This document shows positions 4,172 through 5,562 of a stretch of DNA of 5,562 nucleotides, piece after piece. The stretch comes from an uncultured Lachnospiraceae bacterium (lineage in GTDB: Bacteria > Bacillota_A > Clostridia > Lachnospirales > Lachnospiraceae). The notes below the pieces were generated by a model. That model was not told where the DNA came from. It worked only from the letters and a program-made list of their open reading frames with translations, and searched no databases. The first letter of the stretch is position 1; each line of letters starts with the position of its first letter. The translations under genes were made by a program, and so were the position numbers. Where the stretch lies: contig CADBNG010000382.1 in the NCBI GenBank assembly GCA_902795985.1, forward strand, positions 1 to 5,562, read 5' to 3'.

Positions 4172-4894
4172 TCAGCCGCCGGCCACTGCAGAGGCTGCGA
4201 TCAGGAACTGGGCCGCGTAATAGAGAATATGATTGGAAATGATATCCGCCGGCCGGTTCTTCCCTTTTCCGAAATAAGTGCCGGAAAGCACCAGGTCGGA
4301 AAGCAGGAACAGGACGGCGCCGATAAAGAACAGGATCAGAGGCCGTCTCTGTCCGCCGGTTTTCAGAATCAGACCGGCGCTGATCAGAGCCGAAGAAATC
4401 AGCAGCGCGCCATAAAACATGGTTACATTCCGGAACCGGCCGTAATCCAGCTTCAACAGCTTTCCGCCCATGCCGATGGCAATGCCGCAGACAGCCGAAA
4501 GGGCAAAGGGAAGAACAAAATGAAGGCCGGCAGACGCGCCTTCCCCGAAGCAGCGGATCAGAGCAATCAGGAAGAATACATGTCCTGCCGCAAAGGAATA
4601 GAAGCCCGCAAAGGTATAGCGGTCACTCTCTTCAGGGCAGTTGTATTTCAAGTCCAGCCAGATATCTCCCAGAAGTCCGAAGAACAGGCCGATTGTCACA
4701 AAAAGCGGATAGCTGTTCTTTGCTCCGGGAATCCCGGTAAACGAAAGCAGCAAAAAGCAGCACGACGCAAGGCCCTTCGCTATCAGCGAAGACGCGTTTG
4801 CTCGCTGCACCCGGATTCGCAGGAAAACCGTCAGAAAGCACGCCCCCAGAACCGGAAGCAGTATGATTAAAAATAACGGTGCTGACGTACTCAT
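4172..4894 (-). CDS. YhhN/TMEM86-family membrane protein, possible lysoplasmalogenase
   Basis: This is a 240-residue multi-spanning inner-membrane protein of the YhhN (TMEM86) family. Hydrophobic segments lie at about residues 6-25, 40-58, 62-82, 97-115, 124-144, 157-177, 185-205 and 221-238, about eight helices. Family landmarks are GDIWLD (76-81), AAGH (102-105), FLLSD (196-200) and HILYYAAQ (222-229); the aspartates D77 and D200 are the likely active-site acids. Characterised members hydrolyse the vinyl-ether bond of lysoplasmalogens, giving an aldehyde and a glycerophosphodiester; plasmalogens are common in anaerobic Clostridia. I chose the ATG at 4894 rather than an in-frame TTG at 4912, because the TTG lies inside the promoter spacer. 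No Shine-Dalgarno precedes the ATG, and the transcript may be leaderless. The family call is fairly firm; the substrate is inferred. Confidence 0.85.
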   Translation of the reverse strand: MSTSAPLFLIILLPVLGACFLTVFLRIRVQRANASSLIAKGLASCCFLLLSFTGIPGAKNSYPLFVTIGLFFGLLGDIWLDLKYNCPEESDRYTFAGFYSFAAGHVFFLIALIRCFGEGASAGLHFVLPFALSAVCGIAIGMGGKLLKLDYGRFRNVTMFYGALLISSALISAGLILKTGGQRRPLILFFIGAVLFLLSDLVLSGTYFGKGKNRPADIISNHILYYAAQFLIAASAVAGG

Positions 4895-4900
4895 ATCTGA

Positions 4901-4929
4901 ATTATAATCCAACTTTTAAACATCGACAA
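4901..4929 (-). promoter_or_regulatory. Promoter of the YhhN gene, predicted leaderless transcript
   Basis: On the minus strand TTGTCG (4929-4924) is followed after exactly 17 nt by a perfect TATAAT (4906-4901). Six bases (TCAGAT) then separate the -10 box from the ATG at 4894, so the usual start site coincides with the A of the ATG. The eight bases ATTATAAT (4901-4908) are self-complementary, so a TATAAT also reads rightwards (4903-4908), but without a good -35 box. Confidence 0.7.
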
Positions 4930-4970
4930 CAAAAACGGCTCAAAACGGGGAGGAAATAAAACAAGCACAC

Positions 4971-4995
4971 GGGAGGGAGCAAGGGTCCGAAAGGG
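4971..4995 (+). other. G-quadruplex motif
   Basis: Four GGG tracts at 4971, 4975, 4983 and 4993 are separated by loops of 1, 5 and 7 nt, fitting the canonical G3N1-7 pattern on the plus strand. It lies in a strongly purine-rich plus-strand stretch (about 4940-5047) and its last G-tract is part of the first extragenic palindrome. Whether it folds is not known from sequence. Confidence 0.4.
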
Positions 4996-5061
4996 ACTGT
5001 CCCCTTCGGAACAGGGGCCAGAAGGGACGGAGCAGGGAGCGAAGGGGACTGTCCCCTTCGG
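4988..5061. repeat. Pair of REP-like extragenic palindromes (GGGGACTGTCCCC type)
   Basis: The right copy (5040-5060) is a perfect palindrome with 10-bp arms CGAAGGGGAC and GTCCCCTTCG around a central T. The left copy (4988-5008) has the same sequence except for one arm base (A at 4992), so the copies start 52 bp apart and are direct as well as inverted. Between them lies related purine-rich sequence (AGGGGCC, GAAGGGAC). I see no transposase in the window. The form resembles REP elements that are mobilised by REP-associated tyrosine transposases; that link is inference. In the minus strand the repeats create spurious open frames with KGTVPF and GDSPF. Confidence 0.7.
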
Positions 5062-5071
5062 TTCACCGTCA

Positions 5072-5253
5072 GATCGGATGAGGTCCACAGTACAGACACC
5101 ATCAGCCAAACGAGCTCGAAGACGATTTGCTGCCGGAACTTGCCTGCGGTCTTTGAGGTACGCTTACGCCGAATTTGACCGCAGGCTTAGTGGAGACGTA
5201 AATTGGCTGAGAGGGAGGACGCCTGGTTTCAGTACTGTGAGCCTCATCCGATC
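5072..5253 (+). ncRNA. Candidate structured non-coding RNA with 30-bp-class closing stem
   Basis: Three nested helices span 182 nt. P1: 5072-5101 pairs with 5224-5253, 30 nt on each side with only three 1x1 mismatches; it opens with GATCGGATGAGG against CCTCATCCGATC and continues with ACAGTAC against GTACTGT. P2: TCAGCCAA (5102-5109) pairs with TTGGCTGA (5203-5210) and abuts P1, with a 13-nt purine-rich bulge GAGGGAGGACGCC (5211-5223). P3: GCCTGCGGTC (5142-5151) pairs with GACCGCAGGC (5177-5186) below a 25-nt loop. A small hairpin AGCTCG-AAGA-CGA-TTT-GCT lies at 5113-5131. A terminator follows 44 nt downstream on the plus strand, which favours that strand; wobble pairs do not decide. I see no clear promoter and no riboswitch box I recognise. 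6S-like RNA, raiA-type RNA or another class are open; a MITE with 30-bp ends is the alternative. Confidence 0.6.
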
Positions 5254-5297
5254 CGATCGTACGTTATCTCCAACAGATCTTCTCTCTTTTTAATACA

Positions 5298-5334
5298 GCC
5301 GGGAAAACTGATATCTCAGCTTTCCCGGCCTTTT
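5298..5334 (+). terminator. Rho-independent terminator
   Basis: GCCGGGAAA (5298-5306) pairs perfectly with TTTCCCGGC (5321-5329); the stem extends inward by CTG/CAG after one mismatch, and CTTTT follows. It would end transcription from the structured RNA element. In the other direction it stands 17 nt after the hydrogenase stop codon, but only TGTATT follows the stem there, so it may serve both transcripts with the plus strand favoured. Confidence 0.85.
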
Positions 5335-5346
5335 AGTGTATACAGC

Positions 5347-5562
5347 TTAAAGCGTCCATGTCTCCTGATGCGTATGCAGGAGCTTATGGGAGAGTTCCCC
5401 AAGGGGTTCCTTCAGGAAATCCCGATACAGTTCCTGAACATCCGGATTGTCATGAGAACAGCGGATGGGGTTCTCCTCATCCAGGCGGTACAGGATCTTC
5501 GCCCGCTCGCCGGCAAGTTCCTTCCCGTCTTCGATCGGCTGGCCGCCGCCGCCGGCGCATCC
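5347..5562 (-). CDS. [FeFe] hydrogenase catalytic subunit, C-terminal fragment
   Basis: The last 71 residues and TAA stop of an [FeFe] hydrogenase are present; the rest lies beyond the window. These enzymes reduce protons to hydrogen at the H-cluster, reoxidising ferredoxin or NADH in fermentation. The fragment opens with GCAGGGGQP, the end of the family's third H-cluster motif (MxCxxGCxxGGGQP); its cysteine (codon 5557-5559) is the one that bridges the [4Fe-4S] and di-iron parts. The tail has the familiar order LYRLDEENPIRCSHDNPDVQELY (LYxxD, R-SH-NP, LY) then FLKEPLGELSHKLLHTH. Whether it is a monomeric HydA or a subunit of a bifurcating HydABC/Hnd complex cannot be told from this piece. 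No downstream gene follows on this strand before the terminator. Confidence 0.93.
   Translation of the reverse strand, partial: GCAGGGGQPIEDGKELAGERAKILYRLDEENPIRCSHDNPDVQELYRDFLKEPLGELSHKLLHTHQETWTL

Follow-up and report, generated by a model that had tools for sequence, protein, structure and literature searches.

A probable new family of dispersed, nested palindromic repeats with a folded core and exchangeable arms

The locus and its genes

The window, by which we mean the whole analysed stretch of 5,562 nt from an uncultured Lachnospiraceae bacterium, carries six genes or gene ends on the minus strand and one gene for a 4Fe-4S protein on the plus strand (Table 1). Three of the minus-strand genes are putatively assigned to an SMC-like protein, RNase III and PlsX. 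The best full-length match to PlsX among 98 relatives of genome G001 is 68% identical, so that no close relative is found among those compared, and the nearest named relatives of YhhN, at 57%, belong to metagenome-assembled genomes labelled Lachnospiraceae (RUG12916) and Eubacterium (RUI485). Viral contigs searched for PlsX gave none. The lipoprotein has a choline-binding-type repeat and a long Ala/Glu-rich tail from a degenerate tandem repeat.

The palindromic element that forms the subject of this paper lies between the YhhN and iron hydrogenase genes, both of which are on the minus strand. A candidate sigma-70-like promoter for YhhN (10/12, with a 17-nt spacer; 4929-4901, minus strand) separates the element from the gene. 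If this promoter is the active one, the YhhN leader does not include the element, and the idea of a YhhN leader was rejected on this ground. Within 4894-4929 on the minus strand, the perfect -10 box (TATAAT) ends six nt ahead of the ATG and no ribosome-binding site is evident by eye, so that the YhhN mRNA may be leaderless. A coding origin of the element was likewise rejected, as a search at E up to 10 gave no relative for the 71-aa plus-strand frame.

Beside the element, a REP-like palindrome is present as two inverted copies (4987-5008 and 5040-5061) around GGGGACTGTCCCC. Its pattern, GGGGACTGTCCCCTTCG with one mismatch allowed, is found in 0 of 61 relatives. Outside the element, Rfam at E up to 1 gives two matches in the window, one on this REP-like pair (4985-5064, E 0.012, below gathering) and a second at 1092-1170 (E 0.51).

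Table 1. Genes of the window and parts of the element
Feature	Position	Strand	Remark
SMC-like gene (start)		minus	putative
RNase III gene		minus	putative
PlsX gene		minus	putative
Lipoprotein gene	1933-2997	minus	
YhhN gene	4172-4894	minus	
Left outer arm	5072-5101	plus	pairing reaches 5069; 27/30 paired
Outer-stem mismatches	5085/5240, 5094/5231, 5097/5228		
Conserved folded core, GAG...GGA	5112-5216	plus	105 nt in 12 of 13 long-form copies, 107 nt in the remaining one
Core motif, 5' strand, GAG-CTC-GA-AG	5112-5121	plus	CTC is the variable triplet
ACT helix strand	5138-5140	plus	pairs with AGT 5189-5191; adjoins a purine-rich 3 x 3 loop
P3, 5' strand	5142-5151	plus	10 bp
Apical hairpin	5155-5172	plus	GA, 3-bp stem GGT/GCC, loop ACGCTTAC, GA; stem covaries
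P3, 3' strand	5177-5186	plus	
Core motif, 3' strand, CT-GA-GAG-GGA	5207-5216	plus	GAG before GGA is the variable triplet
Right outer arm	5224-5253	plus	pairing reaches 5256
Iron hydrogenase gene (end)	5347-5562	minus	
4Fe-4S protein gene		plus	

The fold of the window copy

The initial annotation described a 30 x 30 nt closing stem with three single mismatches, and this description holds. The two outer arms pair at 27 of 30 positions, 26 of them Watson-Crick and one G.T, with 122 nt between the arms. This is the best of all 30-nt stems in the window with arms at most 300 nt apart; once the element is removed the best reaches 24/30, and the maximum over 40 whole-window shuffles is 26. The fold energy of 5040-5350 is -126.4 kcal/mol, compared with -91.7 +/- 4.8 for 100 shuffles (z -7.2).

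The same annotation stacked two further helices inside this stem. The 10-bp helix (P3) is confirmed, with a mean pair probability of 0.999. The letters of the 8-bp helix (P2, 5102-5109/5203-5210) are present, yet their mean pair probability is 0.44, the 5' strand is not kept in homologues, and the fold that includes P2 lies 15 kcal/mol above the minimum. The 3' letters of P2 are instead part of a conserved tandem-GA motif with a different pairing partner, and the GGAGG stretch of what had been read as a bulge is the 3' strand of the conserved core. Compensatory changes among homologues are present in P1 and P3, and P2 is not supported. A terminator had also been placed 3' of the element. There is a stem-loop at 5298-5329, which follows the stop codon of the hydrogenase gene (minus strand) by 17 nt, but a scan of 4850-5420 for intrinsic terminators (a hairpin followed by a T-tract) scored no terminator-like site on either strand.

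Copies and their distribution

The element is not alone. We count 27 copies, made up of the one in the window, counted from the window itself, and 26 more in five genomes (G537 12, G535 8, G365 4, G047 1 and G102 1), where copies within one genome are related to each other. A DNA search with the element at E 0.001 returned nothing from 295 relatives of G001. BLAST at E 0.01 against 397 genomes of the family of G001 gave matches in three, with two strong matches in G365 and a single 32-nt match in each of the other two; these short matches (L114 and L115) were rejected, as they do not match R1, a covariance model built from the window element alone. R1 detects four full-length copies in G365 and none in 145 relatives of G001, and a partial match from the R1 search (L121, E 1.45) was not accepted as a copy.

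A second covariance model, R2, built from the window element and the four G365 copies, matches 5 of 145 relatives of G365, with four matches in G365 itself, eight in G535, of which two begin at contig ends, two in G537, and one each in G047 and G102. A looser R2 pass over G537 gives eight matches, two of them weak, and a 20-nt pattern of the G537 apex with up to three mismatches is found at 12 places in that genome and at no control place. Nine of these 12 have a complete core, two have an extra hairpin within the core, and one is cut by a contig end. The copies are thus dispersed, at 4, 8 and 12 places in three genomes and at one place in each of two. R2 at E up to 10 finds none in the close genomes G532, G533, G534 and G536. 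A short-apex core pattern is absent from 291 genomes of the class, a set that includes the carrier G365, in which the apexes exceed the length that the pattern allows.

Searches of plasmids and phages gave no match spanning the query, and exact patterns of the element are absent from the viral contigs; viral pattern matches L134-L136 were rejected, as none has fully paired triplets and by eye they resemble chance occurrences in coding sequence. A literature search of partial coverage returned no title or abstract describing such an element. The expectation that the element fits no known RNA family is upheld, with no Rfam match inside it at E up to 1. Rfam matches touching the elements on L117-L120 and L122-L127 are all far below gathering scores; they are a Burkholderia sRNA model overlapping the element end on L119 (E 0.15) and three microRNA-precursor models on a perfect hairpin in L123. 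Likenesses of the core to a hammerhead, a kink-turn or a lysine-riboswitch piece, which are resemblances of letters alone, were discarded, Rfam having given nothing.

The conserved core

Among the copies, the core has the consensus GAG-XYZ-GAAG on the 5' side and CTGA-Z'Y'X'-GGA on the 3' side, in which the central triplets vary and pair with each other. Three G537 copies (L178, L181 and L182) have GAAA/TTGA in place of GAAG/CTGA, and the final GGA is replaced by GAA, CGA or TGA in L185, L181 and L183. The two tandem GA/GA steps are invariant in 12 of 12 long forms. The apical stem is variously GGC/GCC, GGT/GCC, GAT/ATC or GCC/GGC, and it closes the loop AYGCTTAC in 11 of the 12 listed long forms and ATCATTAC in L138. 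Shorter cores are found in G047 (67 nt), G537 (70 nt) and G102 (34 nt). In L175 and L176 (also L157 and L158), a hairpin of about 50 nt lies inside the core motif, identical in the two over the aligned stretch, so that one hairpin is nested in another.

The triplet helix was compared across 24 of the 27 copies, with L175 and L176 left out for their extra hairpin and L184 for the contig end. Watson-Crick pairs occupy 70 of 72 positions, with one G.T and one A.C, although 11 different 5' triplets occur; 20,000 shuffles give a mean of 38.0 and a maximum of 54. The triplets are paired in 23 of 24 copies when G.T is allowed and fully Watson-Crick in 22. These figures slightly favour pairing, as the best-pairing pattern match was taken at each locus, and the GA letters were demanded by the search pattern.

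Covariation extends through the whole core. RNAalifold predicts 28 pairs for 12 long forms, 19 of them with changes on both sides. In the 12 copies, 95.8% of cells are paired, against 75.5% when shuffled and 25-47% when slid, and the covariation score is 0.672 against 0.292, with none of 500 shuffles reaching the observed paired fraction or score. Further pair types, at 30 against 35.0, are not above shuffles, so that four of five measures exceed them for the core. For the whole element in five copies all five do so, with double changes in 34 pairs against 15.3 shuffled. In both cases the structures were derived from the same alignments on which they were tested.

The plus strand is likely the one on which the core folds, because the tandem G.A mismatches of the plus strand would read as T.C on the minus strand. 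Predicted fold energy is lower on the plus strand in 24 of 24 cores; relative to each core's own shuffles, z is lower on the plus strand in just 12 of 24. Within the core, G.T outnumbers A.C by 5:1 and 6:2 in the two subgroups, while the common fold has a ratio of 9:6, and a core fold derived from the minus strand gives 24:4 in its own favour. The models and patterns were themselves built on the plus-strand fold.

Strong covariation and invariant unpaired letters are what a family of structured trans-acting RNA genes would display, each copy having its own promoter and a GA-rich core that binds a protein or a target, and the initial annotation had favoured an RNA of 6S-like or raiA-like type. 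Both 6S RNA and raiA RNA are rod-like and similar in length to the element. However, the element is without an Rfam match and occurs at up to 12 places in one genome. In the 13 copies that could be aligned with their flanks (seven of G537 and six of G535) similarity stops at the arms, so there is no shared promoter region. The lack of copies in the four close genomes and the frequent placement of copies antisense to both neighbours, described below, also count against RNA genes, and we consider this explanation improbable.

The outer arms

The arms behave differently from the core. They were compared in 21 of the 27 copies, those left out lacking an arm (L147, L148 and L184), carrying the insertion (L175 and L176) or having a cut right arm (L181). 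In all 21, the pairing score of a copy's own arms is 16-30, whereas 322 cross-genome arm pairings reach at most 12; in L149 the arms pair at 30 of 30 positions. Alongside 738 matches there are 20 G.T, 25 A.C and 104 other mismatches. G.T and A.C are about equally frequent, which speaks against the arms being maintained by selection on a single RNA strand.

Several pairs of copies are alike in the core without being alike in the arms. In G537, the cores of L180 and L183 are 93% identical and their arms no more alike than shuffles, and in G535 the same is true of L143/L145 (cores 90%) and L144/L145 (91%). The cores of L141 and L142 are 93% identical, with arms like shuffles save for a weak likeness of the left arms (z 1.9, reached by 23 of 300 shuffles), and in G365 the cores of L138 and L139 are 84% identical with arms not above shuffles. 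Conversely, the arms of L141 and L143 are alike (z 5.4 and 10.0) although their cores are only 75% identical. There are also pairs in which core and arms are both similar, as in L178/L182 (core 97%, arms z 12.9 and 11.1) and many more, a good number of them in G537, as plain whole-element copying predicts. Core and arms are inherited separately.

Likeness of arms between copies is seen in most G537 pairs and several G535 pairs, and is absent in nearly all comparisons in G365. A 19-nt arm pattern occurs at 15 places in G535 and at no control place. On two G535 contigs, similar arms spaced 252 and 255 nt from start to start enclose another long palindromic interior, which R2 does not match at E up to 10, and the left arm of L141 is 97% identical over 36 nt to one of the two, L162. 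L160 (1226-1833) and L162 (934-1541) of G535 have in common a 600-bp inverted repeat, 89% identical, that holds a long palindrome with arms like those of the GA-core elements; this is probably another repeat family. On L139 (about 8070-8310, L118), a 56-nt direct repeat of the arm region, 77% identical, is found on both sides, as if the arm had been duplicated in tandem.

An ordinary MITE, with a transposase that recognises the arms as terminal inverted repeats, would explain why several G535 copies have arms in common, both among themselves and with elements whose interior is different, and why most G537 copies share the ends GCAAATT...AATTTGC. Against it, the ends are the least conserved part of the element, and among the four G365 copies only the right arms of L139 and L140 are alike above shuffles. 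Many copies per genome with target-site duplications had been expected of such a repeat; many copies were indeed found, but in 21 copies, whose arm ends are uncertain, the words shared by the flanks sum to 65 against 64.5 shuffled, and no duplication signal is present. We regard the MITE as very unlikely. A single-stranded DNA site for a hairpin-reading recombinase, akin to attC or REP, would fit a kept fold, free arm sequence and both orientations relative to genes. In integron attC sites the fold of one strand is kept while the sequence varies, the boxes at the foot being conserved and the tip variable. The element likewise keeps a one-strand fold, but conservation is reversed, with the middle rather than the foot conserved, and such a site is the least credible of the explanations considered here.

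Position of the copies relative to genes

No common neighbour gene is present among 17 copies compared, in which homologous neighbours occur in two pairs, an oxidoreductase near L137 and L148 and dehydrogenases beside L143 and L144. In 19 of 24 copies the orientation of both neighbours is known (those of the window copy and L140 having been set by hand): both are opposite to the core in eight, both are on its strand in four, and they are convergent in six and divergent in one (L137). The core lies within 135 nt of a gene 3' end in 17 of 24 copies; of the other seven, four have no gene 3' end within that distance and three have a neighbour beyond the contig end. The core of L149 falls within an open frame of 504 aa, and in L141 and L185 the core lies in a putative frame of about 92 aa; it is thus not certain that all copies are intergenic.

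The proximity to gene 3' ends and the near absence of divergent neighbours would suit a cis-acting element, a 3' untranslated hairpin, tolerated on either strand, that stops transcription or that shields or cleaves mRNA. Some arms do end in an A tract on the left and a T tract on the right (L138, L139 and L152), but the T tract is inconsistent across copies, being missing from the window copy and L137, and four copies have no gene 3' end nearby. Furthermore, insertion at harmless sites predicts the same bias. A cis-acting role therefore seems to us rather unlikely.

A probable new family of nested palindromic repeats

It is established that the element belongs to a family present in many copies, that the core of this family covaries, and that its arms are paired and vary independently of the core. 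The explanation that we favour, and consider probable, places the element in a new family of palindromic repeats, dispersed and nested, broadly of the REP/ERIC/MITE kind, with a folded core and exchangeable arms. The core, of about 55-125 nt, would fold as a rod, probably on the plus strand, in which short covarying helices are separated by tandem G.A mismatches and which in long forms is capped by a GRY-AYGCTTAC-RYC hairpin, the whole sitting inside a longer palindrome with exchangeable arms. The core would be the unit under selection, and movement of the family is suggested by its copy number and patchiness, some genomes having many copies while close genomes yielded none. Spread of the core into other hairpins could be due to some enzyme, or palindromes could recombine or undergo conversion with one another. 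If the host is affected, this would presumably come through the hairpin at gene 3' ends.

REP and REPIN sequences are short dispersed palindromes, compared with which the element is far longer and has variable arms. Closer in size are the ERIC/RU-1, Correia, RUP, YPAL/RU-2 and RU-3 repeats, which two reports describe as dispersed, mostly intergenic and about 100-200 bp long (PMC2229807, PMC10969869). According to the same reports, a transcript of ERIC/RU-1-type repeats would, like one of the element, fold as one long stem-loop, and several of these repeats have short terminal repeats, 7-24 bp in the entries compared, and target duplications (PMC2229807, PMC10969869). Here the ends are variable, no duplication was seen, and the conserved part is an inner core with G.A motifs.

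The pairing of the arms may owe less to RNA function than to mutation bias. Template switching between inverted repeats is reported to make arms alike (PMC8604942, PMC7202029). Such a process could keep the arms paired without selection and may in part do so here by evening the inverted repeats. Without selection, the core could hardly have kept its invariant G.A mismatches through such switching.

A further reading, which we judge unlikely, takes the GA-clamped core as a hairpin parasite of hairpins, which would place copies of itself at the tips of unrelated palindromes already present. The arms would then come from the host site and the core alone would be inherited, possibly with folded RNA or single-stranded DNA as an intermediate that some enzyme reads.

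In bacteria, palindromic repeats are usually identified from their conserved ends, whereas the family of nested repeats that we favour retains a folded middle and exchanges its ends. It also separates two things that are normally confounded, namely compensatory change from selection on a fold, as in the core with its invariant mismatches, and paired arms without strand preference, which are likely mutational or modular in origin. The family is a suitable case in which to study how small non-coding repeats move and how they stay paired.
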